From IMG/VR virus record IMGVR_UViG_3300027742_000034, positions 1 through 23,419 of that record: 23,419 nt of DNA. The stretch is one strand, 5' to 3'. The DNA is from a virus. Below the pieces are notes generated by a model, which made no database searches, was not told the origin of the DNA, and worked only from the letters and a program-made list of their open reading frames with translations. The position numbers were made by a program, and so were the translations under genes. Positions 5,889 through 23,419 of this stretch are shown here, one piece after another; position 1 is the stretch's first letter, and each line of letters opens with the position of its first letter.

Positions 5889-6142
5889 AAGTGGGATGCT
5901 TCTCACTTATGGATTCAAACACAAGTAATGCACAGGGATTGCACAGCCAAAAAAATGCGTTTTTTCGATAGCAGTACGTGACTTTGGGTTTCGCTGCACA
6001 AGCAAAATGCCCTATCCTTTCTCTATTTCTTTTACATCTTCTTTTTCTCTCTCTTTCTTCTTTTGACTTTCAAAGGTTTAAGGAAAAGTAGTTGTTTAAG
6101 TTGTGAATCAGTAGCAGTAGACTGTTTTTTAGTTGTGCATTG
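5889..6142. repeat. Duplicated non-coding element, copy A
   Basis: This copy contains a hairpin (stem AAGTGGGA/TCTCACTT, loop TGCT, 5889-5908), the shared phrase cacaagtaatgcaca, a long pyrimidine tract, then a 23-nt stretch (6067-6089) identical to 21356-21378, followed by about 50 nt of closely similar sequence to 6142. The aligned differences from copy B are mostly amino-acid changing in the only shared open frame, so conservation is at the nucleic-acid level. Candidate roles are a replication origin, control region or small RNA. Confidence 0.7.
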
Positions 6143-6282
6143 CCTGTGCAGCACCTGTGCTTTATATACTGTTTTTGTGCAGCTTAATGAGAATTGATTT
6201 AACAATGTCAAATAATACAATCACGTCATGAATATAATGTGGCAAATTCTTAAGTAGTATGTAAGCATGTATGTATGTAACC

Positions 6283-6684: not shown

Positions 6685-7596
6685 GTGATACCCATCAAAG
6701 CATTAGAATTCAAGTGTGATAGCATACTGCGTGCTGGACTGCGTCAGAGCCTGCGTGGCGCCGATCCCCGCGACATCACAACATCACTACGTGAAGCAGG
6801 GGATCGGCTCACCATCTCCCTCTATGTGCCTCTGTACGCACAAATTCAGAAGACATACCGCGAGGGATACATCTCTGGCGGCAACCTGATAATGCGCCAT
6901 GCCCCCCGCGGCACGATGCTGACCGCAGCCGCACCACTCCCGGCAGAAGACCCGCGGATCGCAAAGGCAACCCGGGATGTGATCTACGGTCTGAAAGATT
7001 CACTCGGCAATCACAAGAACGAGATACAAGCAACCATGCGCGCAGGGTTCGAGCAGGGCGAGTCCATCCCGAAACTGTCTCGCCGCCTCAACCGATACTT
7101 CGACAATAACCGTGCAGCCACGACCCGCATGGCGAGGACAACCACTAATGACGTGTTTAACCGGGCTCACATTGATCGATATGAAGATAGCGGTGTGGTT
7201 GAGGGTGTCCAATACTCGGCTCACATTGACGACCGGACATCAGACATCTGCGAGATGATGAATGGCACCATTTATGGTTTGGGTGATCGTGATATTCAGG
7301 TCCCGCCGCTCCACTTCAATTGTTTGGTTGCCGGGACTCAGGTCCTAACCATCACTGGAATGCAGGATATTGAATCACTGCAAATCAATGATGTGGTTCT
7401 GACTCATCGAAATCGGTACATGCCAGTTACGGATGTTATGAACCGCGTACCGGATGCACTCATCGAAATCAAGACTGCTAATCGCTCCATCCGAGTTACA
7501 CCGAATCACCCAATACTGGTTCAACGAGATGGTGGTTCTGAATGGGTAGCTGCAGGCGATTTGAAAGAAGGCGATTCTGTGGTTGTGGCAGACTGA
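6685..7596 (+). CDS. MuF head morphogenesis protein, N-terminal half fused to split-intein N domain
   Basis: Residues 1-212 are the N-extein of a Phage_Mu_F/SPP1-gp7-type minor head protein: helical region, then ARTTTNDVFNRAHIDRYEDS, YSAHIDDRTSDICEMMNGTI and VPPLHFN. At residue 213 an intein begins: block A CLVAGTQVLTI, block B VTPNHPILV (T272, H275), then WVAAGDLKEGDSVV, ending VVVAD-stop. The 91-residue intein segment lacks block F/G and ends about where natural split inteins (DnaE-like) are cut. The rest of the intein and the protein are encoded at 8289-9155. The annotated start is GTG 6685. An SD-like GGTGAT overlaps it, so initiation may be leaderless or slightly downstream. MuF proteins are packaged in or near the portal. 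Confidence 0.9.
   Translation: MIPIKALEFKCDSILRAGLRQSLRGADPRDITTSLREAGDRLTISLYVPLYAQIQKTYREGYISGGNLIMRHAPRGTMLTAAAPLPAEDPRIAKATRDVIYGLKDSLGNHKNEIQATMRAGFEQGESIPKLSRRLNRYFDNNRAATTRMARTTTNDVFNRAHIDRYEDSGVVEGVQYSAHIDDRTSDICEMMNGTIYGLGDRDIQVPPLHFNCLVAGTQVLTITGMQDIESLQINDVVLTHRNRYMPVTDVMNRVPDALIEIKTANRSIRVTPNHPILVQRDGGSEWVAAGDLKEGDSVVVAD
7321..7596 (+). mobile_element. Split intein, N-terminal fragment
   Basis: Cys213 follows the conserved MuF PPLHFN motif. Blocks A and B are intact (C1; TxxH), with a DLKEGDSV segment near the end. The stop codon is at 7594-7596. Together with the 38-residue C fragment it would make a ~129-residue mini-intein without an endonuclease domain. Confidence 0.88.
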
Positions 7597-8189
7597 TTCC
7601 GTAAAGTATCACAACAGGTCGATACTTTAGAAATATCAAGTTTATATTCATCCCACTTTGATAAAGTGCCCTGTCGGATAGATGCCCCCCCTAAATGGTT
7701 CACTACATCGCCGGGGATAAGCCAGACATGCAAAGGCGTTAGGTCTTTTCGATTGTCAAATGCAAGACATAAAAAGAAGTCTGCTGTGGTATTGTGTTTA
7801 ATTACGAATATCCAATGGCCTCGCTTCCCAAAACATGAGCTCTTAACGTCGATCTTCTTGCCATGATTACAGATGAAATCGTAGCCGGGATTGGTTATTG
7901 GCATTCGTTTAACATCTTTGAATACTTGACTCAAAACGCGTTCCGCAACATGAACGCCGAGATACATTGAACATTCTTTGTTCTCACTCATAGGAAGCTG
8001 CCCTCTTTTGCGGTTCGCCTTCGTCCAGATCGCTCTTACTTTTTCGGGATTTGCTTTTTGCCACAAACGGGTTTGTATACAATTACATTTTACACATATA
8101 TACTCATGTTTTTTCTGACGTGATGCACTCCAATTCTCATCATTTAATACTGCGCCGCACACTCTGCATACTGAATTTGTTTTTGACAT
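7521..8189 (-). CDS. PD-(D/E)XK-type putative homing endonuclease inside split intein, antisense
   Basis: This 222-residue protein is encoded opposite to the MuF halves it separates. The N-terminus has a zinc finger (C8, C11, C32, C35). The core has AERVLSQVF (E83), NPGYDFIC (D104) and KKIDVKSS (D114, K116), a PD-(D/E)XK signature, followed by ADFFLCLAFDNRKDL, VWLIPGDVVNH, GTLSKWDEYKLDISKVSTCC. It is a clear paralogue of the protein at 18966-19592. Homology ends at about residue 199 (nt 7593), exactly where the intein N fragment ends. The last ~23 residues are antisense read-through of intein sequence, so the original stop has been lost. The ATG at 8189 lies ~30 nt after a TATA element, so expression is independent. 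The nuclease role is inferred from motif and location. Confidence 0.82.
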   Translation of the reverse strand: MSKTNSVCRVCGAVLNDENWSASRQKKHEYICVKCNCIQTRLWQKANPEKVRAIWTKANRKRGQLPMSENKECSMYLGVHVAERVLSQVFKDVKRMPITNPGYDFICNHGKKIDVKSSCFGKRGHWIFVIKHNTTADFFLCLAFDNRKDLTPLHVWLIPGDVVNHLGGASIRQGTLSKWDEYKLDISKVSTCCDTLRNQSATTTESPSFKSPAATHSEPPSR

Positions 8190-8216
8190 GGTAACAAAGT
8201 TTAATTAGTCTCGAGA

Positions 8217-8227
8217 CCATATAAATG
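8217..8227. promoter_or_regulatory. TATA element between endonuclease and MuF C-terminal half
   Basis: The minus strand reads CATTTATATGG, centred ~33 nt from the endonuclease ATG (8189), giving a near-leaderless transcript. The plus-strand reading CCATATAAATG could serve the rightward MuF C-terminal gene, with a start near 8250. Confidence 0.5.
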
Positions 8228-8231
8228 TTAT

Positions 8232-8276
8232 GATGGCAGTGCATCCTTTTAAAAGGCATGGTAACACGCTGCCATC
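8232..8276 (+). repeat. Inverted repeat upstream of intein C fragment
   Basis: Perfect 8-nt arms GATGGCAG (8232-8239) and CTGCCATC (8269-8276) enclose the 12-nt palindrome CCTTTTAAAAGG (8245-8256). The right arm ends 6 nt before the GAGG ribosome binding site of the downstream gene, so an RNA stem could influence its translation. Alternatively it is an operator. Confidence 0.55.
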
Positions 8277-8288
8277 TTCTTTGAGGAA

Positions 8289-8402
8289 ATGATGAATACT
8301 GAAACAATCACATCGGTCAAACCGGTTACACCAGAACCAGTTTACAATATCTCCGTAGCAATCGAAGAAAGTTATACAGCTAATGGTGTTGTGGTTCACA
8401 AT
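8289..8402 (+). mobile_element. Split intein, C-terminal fragment (38 aa)
   Basis: The length (38 residues) is close to the ~36-residue C fragments of natural split inteins. The penultimate His, terminal Asn and +1 Cys are all present, so splicing chemistry appears intact. Confidence 0.88.
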
Positions 8403-9155
8403 TGCAGATCCCGATTGGTCCCTTACTTCGGGCGAATTCCTGGAGCCAGAGACTTCAAAAAGGAATTTGATGCCGAGTTTATCAAGCGCGCCGAATCCAC
8501 GCGAGACGTGTTCCGAAAACGCTTCTGGTCGCCCATGCCGCACACAAAGGCATCCGCACCATATCAGCGATCATATTTCCAGAAATCCGACATCAAGACC
8601 ATCACGAACGGACTGAACCTGGCGATCAAAGAAGAGCGCACCGCAAAAGCCGTCCCTGACATTGTGCCGCTTGAACGACTTAAAACGGCGCTACGATACC
8701 GAAAGAGTGACCCAGATAAAACCGTGATCATCGATCGGTTTGGAAAATCACTGATGCTCGATAAGTTTGAAGAGCGCGACATCGTCCGCTCGATCAAATT
8801 GCTGATCGGGCAAACCGACGACAAGCTTGCACGTGAAGCCGTGAAACGGAAAAAGACGATTGAAGCAGCGTGGAAAGATGTTCTCACCACCCGGAAAGGG
8901 ATTGCACGTATGGAAAAAGATGTGGCATATTACGAGAAACAGATCGTGAAGTATCCGGATCGTGCGGTTGAGTATCGAAAGTATGTAGCGCAGGACAAGC
9001 GTGTTATCGAGACCGCCCGGGCGCAGGAGGCGGGACAGATTCGAGAATGGAACCGGTACAAGAGTATGAAGCCATCTGCCACCACATCATCGCTCGAATC
9101 CGAAAAGGAGAGATACAAAGACATGCTCGATGAATTCAAGTTCCAGAAGAGATAG
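8289..9155 (+). CDS. Split-intein C domain fused to C-terminal half of MuF head protein
   Basis: Residues 1-38 are a split-intein C fragment: block F VYNISVAIEESYTANG and block G VVVHN (H37, N38), followed by Cys39 as the +1 extein residue. The extein continues CRSRLVPYFGRIPGARDFKK, which joins the VPPLHFN end of the N half to restore the MuF signature P-P-x-H-x-N-C-R-S. The following ~230 residues are charged and largely helical (KDVAYYEKQIVKYPDRAVEY, EKERYKDMLDEFKFQKR). A GAGG ribosome binding site precedes tandem ATGs (8289, 8292), the second with better spacing. A functional head protein would need trans-splicing with 6685-7596. No frame on the plus strand bridges 7597-8288. Confidence 0.9.
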   Translation: MMNTETITSVKPVTPEPVYNISVAIEESYTANGVVVHNCRSRLVPYFGRIPGARDFKKEFDAEFIKRAESTRDVFRKRFWSPMPHTKASAPYQRSYFQKSDIKTITNGLNLAIKEERTAKAVPDIVPLERLKTALRYRKSDPDKTVIIDRFGKSLMLDKFEERDIVRSIKLLIGQTDDKLAREAVKRKKTIEAAWKDVLTTRKGIARMEKDVAYYEKQIVKYPDRAVEYRKYVAQDKRVIETARAQEAGQIREWNRYKSMKPSATTSSLESEKERYKDMLDEFKFQKR

Positions 9156-10967: not shown

Positions 10968-11528
10968 TTAGTATGGCATGAATCGAGACGATCCACCCGA
11001 CGGCACCGGTAACGGAGAATCAAACTGCAGCGGCTGCTCGATGAACAATTCGGTCAATGCCCACACAAGCGCATCAATCCTATTCGGTGAATACTTCGAT
11101 TCCCCTGGCACCCACGACACCATCTCATCCTCCAACGCCGAAAACTCTCCAACGTGATGGACGACGCCCTTCTCGTAGCGCGCAACGATTGGCTCTGCCC
11201 TAACCGCCTTTCCCCGGGACGCATGGACATTCTTATATCGGCATACCTGGTCCGAAGCCGCCGCCGCTCCGATGATTGTCGCTTCAACCATCAAGCCTCC
11301 AAAGTTTGCCTCTGCAACAATACAATCCGCTCGCCAGCTGGTAAAAGCATTTATCACAGTGGATGACCATTCTCCGGGTGTGCCTGTCATGCTTTTATCA
11401 TCCAGCACATACCCGTGCTCATCAAAACCTTTTCCGGCGACTACAATTCCACACTCAGTAATAATTCCCCCGGGCGGGTCTACACCAACAACGATTCGTT
11501 GCATGTCTGATAATTTTATTGTTCTCAT
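10968..11528 (-). CDS. terL: Terminase large subunit, C-terminal nuclease half
   Basis: These 186 residues form the RNase H-like nuclease domain that cuts packaged DNA. Motifs: RIVVGVDPPGG (D17), DCIVAEANFGG (E73) and PNRIDALVWA (D152), plus the typical SRGKAVRAEPIVARYEKG segment. The ATPase half is encoded separately at 12255-13010. The ATG (11528) overlaps the stop of the HNH gene as ATGA, so translation is probably coupled to the inserted cassette. The first few residues (MRTIKLSDMQ) correspond to the inter-domain linker. All acidic catalytic residues are kept, so the half-protein may be active if it pairs with the ATPase half. Confidence 0.92.
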   Translation of the reverse strand: MRTIKLSDMQRIVVGVDPPGGIITECGIVVAGKGFDEHGYVLDDKSMTGTPGEWSSTVINAFTSWRADCIVAEANFGGLMVEATIIGAAAASDQVCRYKNVHASRGKAVRAEPIVARYEKGVVHHVGEFSALEDEMVSWVPGESKYSPNRIDALVWALTELFIEQPLQFDSPLPVPSGGSSRFMPY

Positions 11529-12097
11529 TTCGTAGCTTCCGTTAACTGTTGCTTGAGTGCGGCAACTTGTTTTTCTAAATCAACTATTTTATTATCCCGT
11601 TTTATTATTTCATGTTCCCACATTTTAGACGGACAGTGATGTGCTTCCGAGGGCAGCAATTCCAAATTCCCAATGCGATTATCATCTCTAATTCCATTCT
11701 TATGGTGAACAATTTCCCATTTCTTGAGGCAACGATTAATATGTTTTGCCATGACTAATCTGTGCTCGCGCACGTATCCCCTCACACCGACCATTGAAGA
11801 AAAAAGAACTTGTTCATCAGGGGTTAAACGAACATTAATATAACCATCTTTTCGCCATATACCACCATTCCATCTTACGTTTTCCACTCCCTGCTTTGTT
11901 GCACGCCTAACGTTCTTTTTGGCAGAGCATGATTTACAAATTACATTACGCGGTTTCTTTTTATAAACGATGTACTGTACCCATCGTTCCTTACCGCATT
12001 CCTCACAAGCTTGCCAAATATAACTACCGCTCCCCCTATCTCCATATTTTTTCCCTATCTCGCTTGCTCTTCGGATTTCGTTTATTTCAGGCATCAT
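11525..12097 (-). CDS. HNH endonuclease in terminase-splitting cassette
   Basis: This 190-residue protein has an N-terminal zinc-binding segment (CEECGKERW, then CKSC, C31/C34/C54/C57), a WNGGIWRKDGYINVR region, the HNH core VREHRLVMAKHI, VHHKNGIRDDNRIGNLEL (H131, H132, N140, N144) and a C-terminal coiled coil (KIVDLEKQVAALKQQL). This is the HNH_3 type frequent in free-standing homing endonucleases of phages. It overlaps the DUF2080-type gene upstream by 11 nt and the terminase C half downstream as ATGA. It is more AT-rich and Lys-rich than the terminase halves, consistent with acquisition. A second ATG at 12094 is an alternative start. Confidence 0.9.
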   Translation of the reverse strand: MMPEINEIRRASEIGKKYGDRGSGSYIWQACEECGKERWVQYIVYKKKPRNVICKSCSAKKNVRRATKQGVENVRWNGGIWRKDGYINVRLTPDEQVLFSSMVGVRGYVREHRLVMAKHINRCLKKWEIVHHKNGIRDDNRIGNLELLPSEAHHCPSKMWEHEIIKRDNKIVDLEKQVAALKQQLTEATK

Positions 12098-12218
12098 CTT
12101 TAAGTACCACTACAACGGTTTTTCCAATCCATGCTTTTGGCACATATAACCGACCACTTGCGCCGCCATCTCCAACAACCTTCTCTCGCGCTTCGACACC
12201 TTTCAATTTGAATTCCAT
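12087..12218 (-). CDS. DUF2080-type transposon-associated small protein (43 aa)
   Basis: The frame begins MEFKLKGVEAREKVV and carries GRLYVPKAWIGKTVVVVL, the signature of the archaeal DUF2080 ('transposon-encoded') family, a small AbrB-like fold. The ATG lies 25 nt from a strong TATA box, so the message should be leaderless. It overlaps the HNH gene. Its presence marks the interruption between the terminase halves as a mobile cassette. Its function is unknown, with DNA binding possible. Confidence 0.8.
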   Translation of the reverse strand: MEFKLKGVEAREKVVGDGGASGRLYVPKAWIGKTVVVVLKDDA

Positions 12219-12237
12219 ACTTATAGTTAGTAATTGG

Positions 12238-12254
12238 TTATATATAAGCTTTTC
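12238..12254 (-). promoter_or_regulatory. BRE/TATA promoter of the terminase-splitting cassette
   Basis: The minus strand reads GAAAAGC followed by TTATATATAA, a textbook archaeal BRE-TATA arrangement. Its centre is ~25 nt from ATG 12218. It lies immediately after the stop codon of the terminase N half (12255), inside the inserted segment. Confidence 0.75.
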
Positions 12255-13010
12255 TCATCCATGTATTAAAGTAACACGACTCTCGGATAATATCTTCCGA
12301 GTCCACAGCGCGCCCGGGACCTCCTCAATGTCCTCTGCAAGGATCTCCTGCCGATATGCGAGGTTGGTCATATCACCCGTGATCTCTTCCAGCGCATTCT
12401 TTGAAATATGCGGATTATCGAATGAGGTGAAATGAAACGCCCCCCATCTGCCGGACGTGTCTTTCTGTGCCATCTGAAACATCTTTGCCGCGTGCTGCGG
12501 GTCTCTGGCTTTCGTGATGGACCGCGTGGATAGGGACGGCGGCGTATAAATAAAACAAGCATCACCGTCATTATCAAGCAGCATCGGCGCACCCACAACG
12601 CCCCAAGTGTCTTCATTCATCAGTTGAAACTCATCCAGAACCAGATAATCAGTATAATCGCCTCTTAAGGTGTTACTGTCCCAAGCAGTTTTTCCCTTGA
12701 TACGGTTCTTTGTACCGGGTCGCTCAATGGTGTGATCGGTCTCGTTCTTTTTGAAGACCCCAGCGTCTATAGGCTCCTGCAACGCCTTCTTTACCTCGAA
12801 CCAGAAGGTATCCAGTTGATCGGATGTGGGCGCGGCATAAAGCGGGCGGAGTCCCTGCAAGAACTTCTCAACACAAATAGTAGCGGCGATAACGGTCTTT
12901 CCCCCTCGCCTACCTGCCCGAATAATCTTTCGCTTCGCTGGACTATTCCGGATAAGTTGCTGTACCGGATGCGGTCTGCGCAGGATGACAGCATGCTCAA
13001 TCTCGGTCAT
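12255..13010 (-). CDS. terL: Terminase large subunit, N-terminal ATPase half
   Basis: This is the DNA-packaging motor ATPase domain, 251 residues. Walker A AGRRGGKT (32-39), Walker B YLVLDEFQ (catalytic E127), motif III FIYTPPS (153-159) and the ending EILAEDIEEVPGALWTR are all present. Intact large terminases continue from this LWTR segment through a short linker into the nuclease domain. Here the frame ends after SRVTLIHG. The nuclease half resumes 727 nt downstream at 11528. The start overlaps the small-subunit gene by 14 nt. The break sits exactly between the two domains. Confidence 0.93.
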   Translation of the reverse strand: MTEIEHAVILRRPHPVQQLIRNSPAKRKIIRAGRRGGKTVIAATICVEKFLQGLRPLYAAPTSDQLDTFWFEVKKALQEPIDAGVFKKNETDHTIERPGTKNRIKGKTAWDSNTLRGDYTDYLVLDEFQLMNEDTWGVVGAPMLLDNDGDACFIYTPPSLSTRSITKARDPQHAAKMFQMAQKDTSGRWGAFHFTSFDNPHISKNALEEITGDMTNLAYRQEILAEDIEEVPGALWTRKILSESRVTLIHG

Positions 13011-16333: not shown

Positions 16334-16504
16334 TTATTCACCTCTCAAATGAAATCGGAAGTGTACGTTTCCCTGCTCCCTGCAGATCATATTGACAATT
16401 GCGTCCCTTAGCGTCTCTGTTTCGCTGTACCATATCGTGTCTTCCACATCGATTGCGTCAGAAAACAACTCGTCAAGTTTATCTTCGATTGCTTCAATAT
16501 TCAT
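16334..16504 (-). CDS. Small acidic hypothetical protein (56 aa)
   Basis: The frame begins MNIEAIEDKLDELFSDAIDV and ends NVHFRFHLRGE. Its ATG overlaps the SNF2 stop (ATGA, 16504-16501), and its end holds the GAGAGGTGA site of the following gene. The C-terminal codons fit the overlap well. Function unknown. Confidence 0.7.
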   Translation of the reverse strand: MNIEAIEDKLDELFSDAIDVEDTIWYSETETLRDAIVNMICREQGNVHFRFHLRGE

Positions 16505-18969
16505 TTCATTATCAACTCCTCTAAAGCATCAATCCCCTTTTCATCCATAATATCATTGATAACCTTCTTTTTGTCTACTAACATGGCTCCGATTGATTGA
16601 TCAATGGTATCCGCACCTAAAATATAATAGATGTTTACGGCATTCTTTTGACCAATTCTATGGCAATTATGAACTACCGCGGTACCTACCACAAACGAAT
16701 GTCCTTCGTCTACGGTAAGATCATATATTCGTTCGGTTTTGGTGCATGTTCGGTGAGTTGTGCTTGTTACAACCAACGATTGCATTGTGCCATCTGTCCA
16801 TCCTATTGTATATGCTTGAGCCTGCTTTCCGTAATTTATACACGGCTTTTTACCAAGACCCATGAGCAATCGCGATGCGTCCGCGGCTAATCTATAAGAA
16901 GCGGTAACGATTTCATTGCGTGTGCATCCGCTTTTGCATCGAACATATCCATCCGATGCAATCCACCCAGATAAGAAATTGATTCGTTGTTCGAATGATG
17001 TGTGGTATAGCCATTCTGGCAGTCGTTTTTCCTTTAACTTTGCTCCAAACTCCCCTATAAACAACTTCGCCAGTTCACTCGAATACATCCGTAACTCACA
17101 TCCTTCGCTGTCTGTATCATATCGAATCGTTCCATTGACCGAATAGCCGTTCAGCCAACGCTGGATGCGCTTAACGTGATGAAGTTTCGTTGTTCGATTT
17201 CCCGCAAATGATACATATCGTCCTTTTTCCTGCCCAGCGTATGCGTGACCATCACCAATATAATACCCAAAGGCGAACATAGCCACATCGGTCAGATCGA
17301 TTATATCTGGCAATTTTATTGCCCGTGTGTTTTTTTGTGTGGTCGCTGGTTTTATACGTGGTTCTGCATAATGCTCACCAAATATCTGATGCTGTGGCGT
17401 TTTAAATGTGAGGGCACACCTATACTCACCACGCATCGGCAGTTCGTTAAAACCGCCCCCCACCACACGAGATGGCATTAAAATCTGATCGCGTGGGCGT
17501 ATGTCCTGCGCTTCTACCCATCCACGACTCATCAATATTCGATGATCTGCTGTGACCTTAATCACTTCTTGCCACCCACGAACATGTATCTCGACAATAT
17601 CTTTGCTTTTTGCTGCATGACTTGACCTCGCAAGTCTATTCCATGCATCAATTACTTGATGAGGTGATCCGTCACCCCCGATAATATAATCGCCAACACG
17701 GATGTCTTCGATAGGTCGCCACCCATCAACAGTCATAATTGGCTGTCCTTCCAATACACATCTGTCCTCAGCCTGCTCAAGCAATGCTGGAGTCCACGGG
17801 ACTTCCAGAAACACCACATTAGACGCTGCCGTAAGCGTTATGCCCACGCCTGCCGCCTGAATGTTTCCGATGAATAGCCGGACACCGGGATCGTTCTGGA
17901 ACTTATCGACCGCATCCTGTCGCTTCTCGCTCGATACACTGCCGTCGATTTTGACCGCCGTCGTCCCATATTCTCGCTCGAGTGCGTGTATGGTCTCCTT
18001 GTGTGTTGCGAAAACAACCAGTTTCTCGCCTGATTCCAGGAAGTTCCCTATCCATGCAAGAGCCTGTTTCATCTTACCCCTGACTGCGATCTGTCTCAAA
18101 TACTCGATCTTCGCTAGCTGCTCGACAGCAGACGCTCGCTCTGCTGCCTCTGCGCCCTTCTGTTCTGTCAGCCACTCGGCGAACTCATTGTCTGCCCGAT
18201 CATATTCTTTCCGGTTGTCGATCTGCACCAGAACGGTTGATCGCCGCTTTGCCGGGAGTTCGGGCAGGACTTGATCCTTTGTGCGCCTGATCATGATCGT
18301 CTTGAGCGACTGTGCAAGCTCATCGAGATTGCTTGCTCCAGAGAAGTCCCATACCGTTTTTCTTCCGAAATGGAGCTGTTTTGCATCAGCATATCGCTTA
18401 TGCCACTGAAAGAACCGCTTATCCGGATATCCGAACGGATCAATTATCTGCAACTGGTTCCAGAGTTCCTCCGGTCGATTCAAGACCGGTGTGCCTGTCA
18501 GAAGTATCTTATGTGCTACAGTCTCGGAAAGCGTCTTTGCCGCTTTGCTGCGCGCCGCGGCTTTTGATTTTATATAATGACTTTCGTCATATACAATTAC
18601 TTCTGGATTAATGCGCTGCAATTCTGGCAGCCACTTGCGAAATATAGCATAGTTCAGGATAATGATGCTAACGTCGTCCGTGAGCGGATACACTTTTCCA
18701 CTATTTATGATTTCAACAACATCTTTGGTTTTCATCCACGATTCGATCTCTCGCGCCCAATTCAACTTAAGTGATGCCGGGCACACAATTACTGCAGGAC
18801 GCATTTCGGGATGCAATGCGAGATATGCCATAGATTGTATAGTTTTACCTAATCCCGGCTCATCTGATATTAACACATTTCCATCGTGTTTATTGATAAA
18901 GTCAAGCCCCTCTATTTGAAATGACATCATCTCTTTACCGTTCCCGAAATTAACCGGTTGCAGTATCAT
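16501..18969 (-). CDS. SNF2-family DNA helicase/translocase containing an intein
   Basis: This is a superfamily 2 ATPase of 822 codons, about 457 after intein removal. The N-terminal RecA lobe has SFQIEGLDFI (Q motif), SDEPGLGKT (Walker A, 35-43), VYDESHYIKS (DESH box, 128-131) and KILLTGTPVLN (motif III). The second lobe has KLVVFATHKE (motif IV), GITLTAASNVVFLEVPW (motif V) and, after splicing, QAEDRCHRIGQKN (motif VI). An intein interrupts motif VI at residues 404-768. Phage SNF2 proteins probably remodel DNA-protein complexes or assist replication forks. The ATG (18969) overlaps the stop of the endonuclease gene upstream (ATGA). The reading frame and all helicase motifs are intact, so function should depend on splicing. 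Confidence 0.95.
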   Translation of the reverse strand: MILQPVNFGNGKEMMSFQIEGLDFINKHDGNVLISDEPGLGKTIQSMAYLALHPEMRPAVIVCPASLKLNWAREIESWMKTKDVVEIINSGKVYPLTDDVSIIILNYAIFRKWLPELQRINPEVIVYDESHYIKSKAAARSKAAKTLSETVAHKILLTGTPVLNRPEELWNQLQIIDPFGYPDKRFFQWHKRYADAKQLHFGRKTVWDFSGASNLDELAQSLKTIMIRRTKDQVLPELPAKRRSTVLVQIDNRKEYDRADNEFAEWLTEQKGAEAAERASAVEQLAKIEYLRQIAVRGKMKQALAWIGNFLESGEKLVVFATHKETIHALEREYGTTAVKIDGSVSSEKRQDAVDKFQNDPGVRLFIGNIQAAGVGITLTAASNVVFLEVPWTPALLEQAEDRCVLEGQPIMTVDGWRPIEDIRVGDYIIGGDGSPHQVIDAWNRLARSSHAAKSKDIVEIHVRGWQEVIKVTADHRILMSRGWVEAQDIRPRDQILMPSRVVGGGFNELPMRGEYRCALTFKTPQHQIFGEHYAEPRIKPATTQKNTRAIKLPDIIDLTDVAMFAFGYYIGDGHAYAGQEKGRYVSFAGNRTTKLHHVKRIQRWLNGYSVNGTIRYDTDSEGCELRMYSSELAKLFIGEFGAKLKEKRLPEWLYHTSFEQRINFLSGWIASDGYVRCKSGCTRNEIVTASYRLAADASRLLMGLGKKPCINYGKQAQAYTIGWTDGTMQSLVVTSTTHRTCTKTERIYDLTVDEGHSFVVGTAVVHNCHRIGQKNAVNIYYILGADTIDQSIGAMLVDKKKVINDIMDEKGIDALEELIMK
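16666..17760 (-). mobile_element. Intein with LAGLIDADG endonuclease in SNF2 gene
   Basis: These 365 residues run from Cys404 (CVLEGQPIMTVDGW, block A) through block B (VTADHRIL, T473/H476) to block G (VVGTAVVHN, H767/N768), with +1 Cys769. In between lie two LAGLIDADG-type motifs, FAFGYYIGDGHA (about 565-576) and FLSGWIASDGYV (about 665-676), each with its acidic residue, so the homing endonuclease looks intact. The insertion lies between R403 and the CHRIGQ segment, one of the most conserved sites of the host protein. Confidence 0.95.
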
Positions 18970-19592
18970 TGTGTTTTACCTCTCATAGCATCACAACATG
19001 CTGATACTTTGTTAATGTCAAGAGCATATTCATCCCATTTCGCGAGTGTTGTTTCACTAATTGATGCAAGCATTAAATGATTGGTTTCATCTGCCGGAAT
19101 GAGCCAAATATATTCAGGATCTAAATCATTACGATTATTGAATGCCAACATCAAGAAGTATTGTGCGATCTGGTTTCTACGGATAGTGAATGTCCAGTTG
19201 TCTGCACATTTTTTATGATGATGGCGACATGAACTCTTAACATCAACCATATAATCATGCCCACATATAAAATCATATCCAGGATTATTCATGGGCATTC
19301 GTTGCACATTCTTAAAAACGTGCGACAGGACGCGTTCAGCCACAACAACCCCCAGATATAGGGAGCATTCTCTGTGTTCACTCATTGGTTTACTGCGTCC
19401 TGTGCGGTGACGCCATTCCTGCTGATATTCGCGCTGATACGCACATTGTTGATCATGATGCTCTTGCATCCATCCACGATGATAATCTCTCACGCAACTT
19501 CGACAAACGTAGCAAGAATTATCAATCCTGCCTTGTGTGATGTTTTCACCAACAATGATATCATCACCACAATGTATGCATTTATGAGTCAT
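18966..19592 (-). CDS. PD-(D/E)XK-type putative homing endonuclease next to SNF2 intein gene
   Basis: The start at 19592 (MTHKCIHCGDD) is preferred over an upstream in-frame start because it overlaps the preceding stop as ATGA and is followed by the zinc finger (C5, C8, C30, C33). The 208 residues include VVVAERVLSHVF (E86), NNPGYDFICGH (D107), YMVDVKSSC (D117, K119), IAQYFLMLAFNNRNDL, YIWLIPADETNHL and LAKWDEYALDINKVSACC. It is a clear paralogue of the endonuclease inside the split intein at 7521-8189. It sits between two ATGA junctions, directly upstream of the intein-bearing SNF2 gene. The nuclease call is based on the PD-(D/E)XK pattern. Confidence 0.8.
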   Translation of the reverse strand: MTHKCIHCGDDIIVGENITQGRIDNSCYVCRSCVRDYHRGWMQEHHDQQCAYQREYQQEWRHRTGRSKPMSEHRECSLYLGVVVAERVLSHVFKNVQRMPMNNPGYDFICGHDYMVDVKSSCRHHHKKCADNWTFTIRRNQIAQYFLMLAFNNRNDLDPEYIWLIPADETNHLMLASISETTLAKWDEYALDINKVSACCDAMRGKTQ

Positions 19593-19867
19593 CCGAACAC
19601 CTGTGCGCACCATACTGCGCCTTCTTGCTCGGGCAACTGGATCATTGCCTTCCGCCCGCAAAGGTTGCCTGCTGCTTTGAGTTGTGTGACTACCTGCCGG
19701 TGATATAGTTCAAGACGACGCGTGTCGCCCCCGATCCGTGCGTGGATGTAGTATATGGGGGTGCCATACATGGTCTTCTCGGGTTCTTCAGGGAAGTCTT
19801 CCAAAAACTCGACCGCCAGATCTCGAATTTCGGTGATGCTGACCGTTTGCGTTAGTTCTGTTGTCAT
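19589..19867 (-). CDS. Hypothetical protein (92 aa) behind structured leader
   Basis: The start at 19867 follows the AGGACGTGAATCAACA leader. An in-frame upstream ATG (19906) would lie in the predicted 5' hairpin and is unlikely. The protein reads MTTELTQTVSITEIRDLAVE, then FLEDFPEEPEKTMYGTPIYY, IHARIGGDTRRLELYHRQVV and ends EGAVWCAQVFG. It is a mixed alpha/beta protein of unknown family. It shares the MTTE opening and leader with the 72-residue gene at 10573, but not the rest of the sequence. Confidence 0.72.
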   Translation of the reverse strand: MTTELTQTVSITEIRDLAVEFLEDFPEEPEKTMYGTPIYYIHARIGGDTRRLELYHRQVVTQLKAAGNLCGRKAMIQLPEQEGAVWCAQVFG

Positions 19868-21167: not shown

Positions 21168-21205
21168 ATTGTTTCACGTCCTAAAATGTAAAATGCATTC
21201 CAATA

Positions 21206-21432
21206 ATGAGAAGCATCTCATAAATGGATGTCTGCACAAGTAATACACACTCCAAACACAGGTATGAAAACGATAACAGTAGGCTTGATACACAACCTGC
21301 ACGACCATTTTGGTACATCCTACTCTATACTCCTTTATTCTCTTCTTTTTCTTATCTTTCAAAGGTTTAAGGAAAAGTGGTTGTGTAGGTTGTGTATCGA
21401 TACCAGTAGACGTTTTTTCATCTGTGCATTGG
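21206..21432. repeat. Duplicated non-coding element, copy B (in 21168-21487 gap)
   Basis: This lies in the 320-nt gap between the primase-helicase stop and the HTH gene. It has a hairpin ATGAGA-AGCA-TCTCAT (21206-21221), the phrase cacaagtaatacaca, a pyrimidine tract (about 21330-21358), a 23-nt stretch (21356-21378) identical to 6067-6089, then GGTTGTGTAGGTTGTGTAT direct repeats and TGTGCATT words to 21432. Other TGTGCA-like words continue to about 21473. No convincing gene is seen here. Confidence 0.7.
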
Positions 21433-21487
21433 CGGGGATTAGGTTGTGTTTGCTCATTTGCCTGTGCATTAAAATGAGAGAAAAATA

Positions 21488-23419
21488 TTAAATACATGCT
21501 TGCCTCCCCGTTTTCATTCTAACGCCCACATAAGCTCGGTATCTCATATTATCATCGTCAGTGAATTGCCGTACCACACAGCCGAGCCCTTCAAGGTGTG
21601 TGGTCAAAACGCCCTTCGTTTTCACCCGGAAACAATTACCCCGTGACCACATCACATACTGATTATATAATTCGTTCTTACTAATATAATCGTCCGGGTC
21701 GCTAAAACTGCAATACTCATCACAGAACCGTGCAGCAGGGTTGCTGGCATAGAGATACGCTTGTTTCCGATCCTCAATCGTTCCGACACACGTGAATTTA
21801 CCATCATCCAACAAAACAGACACAGCTCCCATCGCCTTGTTAAAAAGTCCTGATAACTCAGCTGGTGTCGTCAATTTGCTAAACAGGTTCTTATCAGCGG
21901 TGTCTCCATCGAATTGTTGTAAGAACGGAACCGTTATCATCCGCCTGAAAAAACCATCTGATGTGTCGGTTGTCACCGGCACTTCGTTGCAGCCAAAAAC
22001 ACATAGTACGGTCGGCGTGAATTTGAACGCCTTCTCATATTTGTATTGCCCACGTTGCTCCGCACCGCTAATAATCGACTTAAACACCCCCAAATTTTTA
22101 AGCGGGGTATTGCCTAAATCATCGATAGTATTCAGTAGTTTTCCGAACAGGTCCGCCACTGCAAACTTGTCCTCTCCGCTCAACTCTGACGGAGTTACGT
22201 GAGCCGTAACACCGCTTCCCGCAAACGCGTCTAATAGTCCGATCATACGGGACTTGCCGTTTGCACCGCTCCCCTCAAAAAGCACCGCCGTATCTAACTG
22301 CTTTTCCTTTAATAACGAATATCCAAAGAGTTCGTACATGAACGGAACGTGTTTTTCGAGCAGCACTTCTTCAAAAAACCGATCGATGCGTGGGCAGGTT
22401 GCCTCCGGGTCGTACACCACCGGGCTTTTGTGCATCGATAAATGTTCTGAAGTGTGTGGCATTAGTGTACCGGTTCTCATGTCGTATAACCCGTTTGCGA
22501 GGTTTATTACGTTCTTATCGCTGTCAAATTCCACGCGTTCGACGTATGTGCGGCGGCGCACATGCCCAATAATCTCATTCACAGCGTTTTTCGTTACTTT
22601 GTACCCGTCCATGATATGTTCAACAAGCTTTCCAATTTCTATGTCTCCCCCATGCTGATAAATCCCGTCCCCATATTGCAACACTTCTTCCGTATCTGAA
22701 AACGTTGCAAACGTGCGTCCGGATTCATATATCAGCCACTTTGAAAACCCGTTTACGTCGAATACCTTCTGGTCCCCAACCAAAAACATGTCCGGCGATA
22801 CACCGTTTTTTTCACTCGCTGTCTCTGGTGCGGATGGTGCCTTCGTCCGTCCCGATGATATACCCTCCTTCGTTTCGACAAGTGCGAGAGTCTGTTGATA
22901 CGCTTCAAATGGAAGTTTCCATCCATCTGTAATCTCCTCTGCCTTGCATATTCCCTGGTCGACAGCGCACCACCGCAATGCACCGCTTGGTATCGGGTCA
23001 TCTTTTGGTATCATCCCTTCATGCTTCGCAAACGCCCACATCTTCCATAATGTCGCGCCATCAGCATAATCGATACACGAAGACTTGCCGCGGTTAAACC
23101 CCTGCCCTGCGCTGTTGCAATCAGAGACACCAGCCAAAACCGCCAATGCCGATAAGGGAGTATGGGTTACCAGATGCCGCCAGCACGTTAGCCCACCATC
23201 ATCATTGAGTGCTGTGTTCTTTCCGGTAGTTGATTCGTGAAAAAGAGATTTGAACCTGGTCTTGTTCGGAATGCTCATTATGTCTTCAATCGACAGATCC
23301 CACATCACCGACCGGTTTTTATCATTGCCTTGCGCCGGCTTCTTATCTTTGCGCGCCTTCGCCGTTTCCTCACGTCTCTTTTTCGTTTCCCGCTCTGCCT
23401 CACGGTTCTTTTTCGCTTG
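21488..23419 (-). CDS. Primase-helicase (D5_N/P4-type SF3 helicase), partial at 5' end
   Basis: The frame is open to the right edge. Upstream of the first GTG/ATG codons (23308/23305) there are 37 more in-frame codons of charged linker (KKNREAERETKKRREETAKA), so the start and probably an N-terminal primase domain lie outside the window. Counting from 23308: a PriCT/D5-type linker region (about 1-150, GLTCWRHLVTHTPLSALAVL), D5_N region (about 180-330, DVNGFSKWLIYESGRTFATF), then SF3 helicase with Walker A GSGANGKS (346-353), Walker B LLNTIDDLGN (391-400), motif C CVFGCNEVP (436-444), arginine residues DGFFRRMITVPF, and a C-terminal winged-helix region. It is the replicative helicase of the element. 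Confidence 0.93.
   Translation of the reverse strand, partial: QAKKNREAERETKKRREETAKARKDKKPAQGNDKNRSVMWDLSIEDIMSIPNKTRFKSLFHESTTGKNTALNDDGGLTCWRHLVTHTPLSALAVLAGVSDCNSAGQGFNRGKSSCIDYADGATLWKMWAFAKHEGMIPKDDPIPSGALRWCAVDQGICKAEEITDGWKLPFEAYQQTLALVETKEGISSGRTKAPSAPETASEKNGVSPDMFLVGDQKVFDVNGFSKWLIYESGRTFATFSDTEEVLQYGDGIYQHGGDIEIGKLVEHIMDGYKVTKNAVNEIIGHVRRRTYVERVEFDSDKNVINLANGLYDMRTGTLMPHTSEHLSMHKSPVVYDPEATCPRIDRFFEEVLLEKHVPFMYELFGYSLLKEKQLDTAVLFEGSGANGKSRMIGLLDAFAGSGVTAHVTPSELSGEDKFAVADLFGKLLNTIDDLGNTPLKNLGVFKSIISGAEQRGQYKYEKAFKFTPTVLCVFGCNEVPVTTDTSDGFFRRMITVPFLQQFDGDTADKNLFSKLTTPAELSGLFNKAMGAVSVLLDDGKFTCVGTIEDRKQAYLYASNPAARFCDEYCSFSDPDDYISKNELYNQYVMWSRGNCFRVKTKGVLTTHLEGLGCVVRQFTDDDNMRYRAYVGVRMKTGRQACI

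Follow-up and report, generated by a model that had tools for sequence, protein, structure and literature searches.

In the 'fractured genes' that Dassa and colleagues reportedly described from phages in 2009, a conserved gene is broken by a split intein and a separate endonuclease gene sits in the break; the genes concerned are said to encode enzymes of DNA synthesis and repair. Here we analyze such a break in a viral head-protein gene, that of the MuF-like minor head protein in IMG/VR record IMGVR_UViG_3300027742_000034, the whole of which (23,419 bases, classed as linear) is referred to below as the window. The locus resembles the fractured genes in that a conserved gene is broken by a split intein with an endonuclease gene in the break, but departs from their reported description in its host gene, which encodes a head protein, and in its nuclease, which is predicted to be of the PD-(D/E)XK type and is neither Vsr-like nor HNH. 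The window nuclease is also encoded antisense to the head-protein gene. The window thus holds a head-protein, PD-(D/E)XK and antisense form of the already known fractured genes. Fracture with trans-splicing would accordingly extend to a structural protein of the virion, and the nucleases in such breaks to another superfamily, the second, and to the opposite strand.

A split PolB intein with an HNH endonuclease is known from phage MIJ3 (PMC6892783). The homing endonuclease I-Ssp6803I (structure 2ost) is similar to the window nuclease in the predicted domain fold, yet it belongs to a bacterial group I intron, whereas the window nuclease lies in a split intein and carries an added N-terminal CxxC..CxxC region. 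The ShiLan 'hidden' HNH endonuclease is read from an insertion in a phage gene, in an alternative frame (methylases; PMC11855218, 2025), and is, like the window nuclease, a mobile endonuclease hidden in a phage-gene insertion, but it lies on the same strand, out of frame and in no splicing element, in contrast to the opposite-strand gene within an intein considered here. Nuclear ribosomal DNA (rDNA) group I introns with antisense homing endonuclease genes have been reported as well (PMC9548176); they share with the window an endonuclease gene opposite to the host gene within a self-splicing element, but the element is an RNA intron, its host is eukaryotic rDNA and the nuclease is of the His-Cys box kind. 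No antisense endonuclease in inteins was found in the literature searched (preprints, most subscription papers and the 2009 fractured-gene paper lay outside the search). The antisense intein class described below looks undescribed in that literature, its novelty being provisional given the preprints and subscription papers not covered.

The split MuF gene and its intein

As an earlier note made on this DNA had claimed, the MuF head protein is encoded as two genes, each carrying one half of an intein. The open reading frames (ORFs) span 6685–7596 and 8289–9155 on the plus strand, and the locus is made up as follows (supporting evidence in brackets):

6685–7320, plus strand: N-extein of the MuF-like minor head protein, 212 residues, ending in PPLHFN (Phage_Mu_F; TIGR01641)
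7321–7596, plus strand: intein N fragment (IntN), 91 residues plus stop, with C1 and the TPNH block B, ending in GDSVVVAD (TIGR01445; PDB intein matches)
7521–8189, minus strand: antisense gene, 222 residues, candidate homing endonuclease (AlphaFold2 model; Foldseek; VIA-align)
8190–8288, no strand assigned: divergent region of 99 bp from the nuclease start (minus) to the IntC start (plus) (sequence)
8289–8402, plus strand: intein C fragment (IntC), 38 residues, ending in VVVHN (TIGR01443)
8403–9155, plus strand: MuF C-extein, beginning with the +1 Cys (CRSRLVPYF) (identity to the MuF proteins of L004–L006)

The N-extein matches Phage_Mu_F with 50.1 bits (cut-off 29.6) and TIGR01641 (phageSPP1_gp7) with 72.9 bits. 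The intein C1 codon follows at 7321 (HFN|CLVAG), the IntN frame closes with the stop at 7594–7596, and both intein halves exceed the cut-offs of their models: 26.3 versus 24.5 bits for IntN (TIGR01445, intein_Nterm) and 27.4 versus 15.6 bits for IntC (TIGR01443, intein_Cterm). When joined, the 91 + 38 residues match solved inteins, namely Pho RadA (E = 1.7e-8), gp41-1 (6.3e-5) and NrdJ-1 (5.3e-4). The splicing motifs C1, TPNH, HN and +1 Cys are all intact, and the halves are free of internal stops. Since the two halves differ in reading frame (offset 2) and the gap contains 6, 13 and 15 stops in the three sense frames, the break is a true split; readthrough or frameshifting that would yield a contiguous intein is ruled out by the stops in every frame.

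The joined exteins had also been proposed to restore a normal MuF, and the search for an uninterrupted gene in related viruses bears this out. In L004, L005 and L006, one contiguous MuF gene runs across the junction; the window MuF is 70–77% identical to these proteins over residues 1–213 and 63–65% in the C part. The window exteins together therefore represent one complete protein. L197 contributes a further uninterrupted MuF. An N and a C fragment on separate genes, along with a complete joined extein, are the marks of a naturally split intein, and a bacterial intein-like (BIL) domain is excluded by the +1 Cys and by exteins that rebuild MuF. A group I or group II intron at MuF or the terminase was likewise rejected: the window gave no Rfam match at the gathering threshold, and at E ≤ 5 one weak chance match only, to a small nucleolar RNA in the terminase insert.

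The insert is lower in GC content (0.48 in IntN, 0.41 in the nuclease gene, 0.39 in IntC) than the exteins (0.55 and 0.51). The start codon of IntC (ATG, 8289) is directly preceded by GAGG, and the divergent region contains an 8-bp inverted repeat (GATGGCAG/CTGCCATC at 8232–8239/8269–8276). Positions 8190–8288 may supply the start of the C-half and perhaps a promoter too; the 'TATA box' ascribed to the antisense gene in the earlier note is a sequence impression only. A perfect 9-bp inverted repeat with a 10-base loop (7602–7629), situated just past the IntN stop and inside the 3' end of the nuclease gene, is a possible terminator for the convergent genes.

The antisense nuclease

The protein encoded between the halves combines a zinc-ribbon-like N-terminal region (residues 1–45, CxxC..CxxC) with a nuclease domain at about residues 69–190, for which the AlphaFold2 model shows the order of helix, strands and helix seen in PD-(D/E)XK enzymes. 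The best structural neighbors according to Foldseek (E = 1e-5 to 9e-5) and VIA-align are NhoI/Eco15I and the homing endonuclease I-Ssp6803I; structural alignment gave a Z score of 12.5 for NhoI and of 11.0 for I-Ssp6803I, the latter with a root-mean-square deviation of 2.5 over 109 residues. No sequence match to I-Ssp6803I was obtained with phmmer, the kinship being at the level of the fold only. D104 and D114-x-K116 are invariant in five relatives, and E83 is present in the four that cover this position. Since the model was built on three sequences only and has an overall predicted local distance difference test score (pLDDT) of 64.8 (about 70–82 in the core), assignment of the fold is good, though short of certain, and the model of the PD-(D/E)XK domain is of modest confidence. 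A Vsr-like (EDxHD) identity was rejected, as the D-x-K motif is kept and no Vsr, DUF559 or MTES_1575 match was found in Pfam at E ≤ 1. The predicted fold and both structural comparisons are thus in line with the antisense PD-(D/E)XK-type protein postulated by the earlier note, including its difference from Vsr-like nucleases, and the separate endonuclease gene at 7521–8189 (minus strand) between split-intein halves agrees with its reading as a fractured gene.

The nuclease ORF overlaps the 3' end of IntN tail to tail (7521–7596). Its last ~25 codons are the antisense of IntN DNA and are missing from its relatives; such a tail is as expected if the gene had been inserted into intein DNA with loss of its stop codon. 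The relatives comprise Nuc2, a free-standing paralogue in the window (18966–19661, minus strand, adjoining the helicase gene; 48% identical), as well as L003 and loci from metagenome-assembled genomes, one of Planctomycetota and one of Methanosarcinales; none of them is situated within an intein. The window nuclease had no match in cultured phages, and one match only in genomes of its order.

Related inteins at the MuF site

Relatives of the intein were collected by a scan with window-type intein N fragments followed by profile classification. Four further cases of a MuF intein split by an antisense nuclease gene came to light, in L194, L280, L299 and L304/L305 (all IMG/VR), these nucleases being of the Vsr-like kind; that of L194 is a DUF559 protein (30.7 bits versus a cut-off of 20.6), while that of L299, which falls below the profile threshold used, was assigned by eye from its sequence. 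The arrangement, suspected by the earlier note to be new, is therefore not a singleton. In L287–L289 the intein is split by a 100-base gap and has no nuclease, and in L195/L275, L196/L276, L277, L282/L284, L283 and L310 the split is accompanied by a sense nuclease ORF that continues into the intein C fragment and, in L195, L196, L277, L282, L283 and L310, on into the C-extein. The sense nucleases of L195 (5362–6186) and L196 (5411–6121) match Pfam HNH; in both loci the first codon of the nuclease ORF overlaps the stop codon of the N-half (ATGA).

A contiguous homologous intein had been named in advance as evidence that could overturn the split. L274 is such an intein: nuclease-less, located at the same MuF site, 46% identical to the window IntN, and with a Met codon after GGGGG where the window intein C fragment begins. 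It is the nearest contiguous relative of the window intein and no refutation of the split, which still stands. A tree built from 38 intein halves pairs the window with L274, though without support, and the window falls outside a supported group (99/92) of the antisense-Vsr split inteins plus L288. A shared origin of the window break and the antisense-Vsr split clade is absent from the best tree but not rejected (approximately unbiased test, p-AU 0.098); an independent fracture of the window gene is likely on the basis of these sequences.

A larger class, in which the MuF intein is contiguous and a Vsr-like nuclease is encoded antisense inside it, is represented by L007 (3248–4021), L012 (4103–4879), L013 (4313–5080), L014 (3475–4290) and L015 (3355–4113), the intein of L007 being inserted at the same site as that of the window and containing an antisense ORF of 257 residues. 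The antisense ORF also occurs in MuF inteins of Vibrio, Salmonella and E. coli phages and is mostly unannotated in cultured phages, among which 93 records match the protein, 78 of them at a coverage of 80% or more. In 79 of 80 loci (L018–L097), the nuclease gene faces a sense ORF free of stop codons, always in the codon-aligned phase, a proportion that is not a frequency among MuF inteins because the loci were selected by their nuclease. Forty members were scanned against Pfam, with MTES_1575 found in 24 and HTH_7 in 14; a profile of five antisense sequences hit the DUF559-type structure 3hrl (1e-6) and I-Bth0305I (1e-3), and a model of the antisense protein (pLDDT 89.7) aligned with Vsr (Z 12.2 and 11.6) and I-Bth0305I (Z 10.6). 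Substitutions are distributed over sense codon positions 1/2/3 with shares of 0.26/0.18/0.56 in the exteins versus 0.57/0.13/0.30 in the overlap; owing to this shift to sense position 1, the antisense wobble position, the antisense frame is the constrained one. The possibility that the antisense similarity is a mirror of sense conservation is ruled out by the Pfam and PDB profile matches, the fold and the codon-position shift. The His codon of block F coincides with an antisense ATG in 61 of 68 loci, and a Shine-Dalgarno-like core is found upstream in 30 of the 68 versus 8 of 97 control CAT codons, these counts being inflated by near-copies. In other contexts, L158, L132 and L133 contain inteins with an antisense zinc finger plus Vsr-like nuclease; in L158 a single ORF holds two inteins, the nuclease being antisense in one of them and sense in the other.

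We lean towards regarding the inteins at the MuF HxN|C site as a broad class with an antisense homing endonuclease, encoded either in codon register inside a contiguous intein or, after loss of the sense frame, between the halves of a split one, the window being an example. In the contiguous form, the sense linker would be roughly the readable back of the nuclease gene, and block F would provide the nuclease start codon. If true, this would be a new way in which mobile inteins are organized and would offer a path by which contiguous inteins become split. One site offers a natural series: the empty gene, a contiguous intein lacking a nuclease, a contiguous and a split form that each have an antisense nuclease, and a split form whose nuclease is sense. 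The origin of split inteins thereby becomes testable in those cultured phages of Salmonella, E. coli and Vibrio that carry the contiguous antisense form. This broader antisense class deserves a study of its own.

Proposed mechanism, alternatives and genomic setting

We consider it quite probable that the window carries a fractured head-protein gene whose products trans-splice and whose antisense nuclease homes into empty MuF sites. MuF-N::IntN and IntC::MuF-C would be made separately, associate via the split HINT intein and yield intact MuF by trans-splicing. The antisense, I-Ssp6803I-like PD-(D/E)XK endonuclease would cleave the HFN|CRS site where a co-infecting virus has an uninterrupted MuF gene, and repair would copy the cassette of split intein and nuclease gene into the cut MuF gene. 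The antisense placement would render nuclease expression independent of the MuF message, and the intervening DNA would provide the start, perhaps also the promoter, of the C-half. The virion would depend on trans-splicing only provided that the halves do splice and that MuF is essential. The data directly support the intact split halves, the completeness of the exteins, the fold family of the nuclease, the empty-site relatives and the layout in independent viruses; splicing, cleavage, homing and promoter function are inferred. Several points weigh against this picture: the nuclease model rests on 3 sequences with a pLDDT of 64.8, and the host attribution is weak. In addition, the closest kin of the nuclease (Nuc2, L003, L178, L179) lie outside inteins and few other family members were found, so that their distribution gives no support for site-specific homing at the MuF site.

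It is conceivable, though in our view unlikely, that the nuclease is a passenger, that is, a free-standing phage nuclease inserted in a split or mini intein with another role or target, the halves splicing but being immobile. Its free-standing relatives, including Nuc2 in the same genome, and the related nuclease-less split intein of L287–L289 would be in line with such an origin, but its position and orientation match those of the antisense Vsr-like nucleases in other split MuF inteins, and its best matches by fold include a known homing endonuclease. We deem it quite improbable that the intein is decaying, with halves that no longer splice and a virus that is defective or uses MuF as two pieces. 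The intact C1, TPNH, HN and +1 Cys, the scores of both halves above the intein cut-offs, the GAGG and separate start of the C-half and the lack of internal stops all speak against decay, despite an interrupted MuF gene, a terminase that is also in pieces with no detectable splicing element, and no portal or major capsid gene recognized in the 23-kb window between the terminase and head-tail genes (L004 being alike in this respect). An assembly artefact might be suspected as the window is a single metagenomic contig, but junctions exactly at the intein borders and the recurrence of the layout in L194, L280, L299 and L304/L305 from other samples make this hardly credible. Fractured, trans-splicing MuF with a homing antisense nuclease is thus the reading we adopt.

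Tail proteins, a terminase, an SNF2 helicase and a D5-type primase are also encoded in the window, with most of the genes on the minus strand. The MuF gene on the plus strand runs opposite to the late/tail genes, and because MuF has the same orientation relative to the tail genes in L004 and L274, this is not a local artefact. A Methanosarcinales relative of the nuclease (64%) and a DUF2080 ORF suggest an archaeal host, as far as such sequence affinities can be taken. The terminase large subunit is spread over two ORFs within 10968–13010 (ATPase 12255–13010, nuclease 10968–11528), with an HNH gene (11525–12097) and the DUF2080 ORF in between; it is intact in L004, and the break in the window showed no match to an intron family. 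The SNF2-type helicase gene (16501–18969) contains a contiguous LAGLIDADG intein. Two low-complexity ORFs on the minus strand (6032–6220 and 21174–21497) encode similar Lys-rich peptides (LFLKPLKxKxxKR) and perhaps represent a repeated intergenic element.
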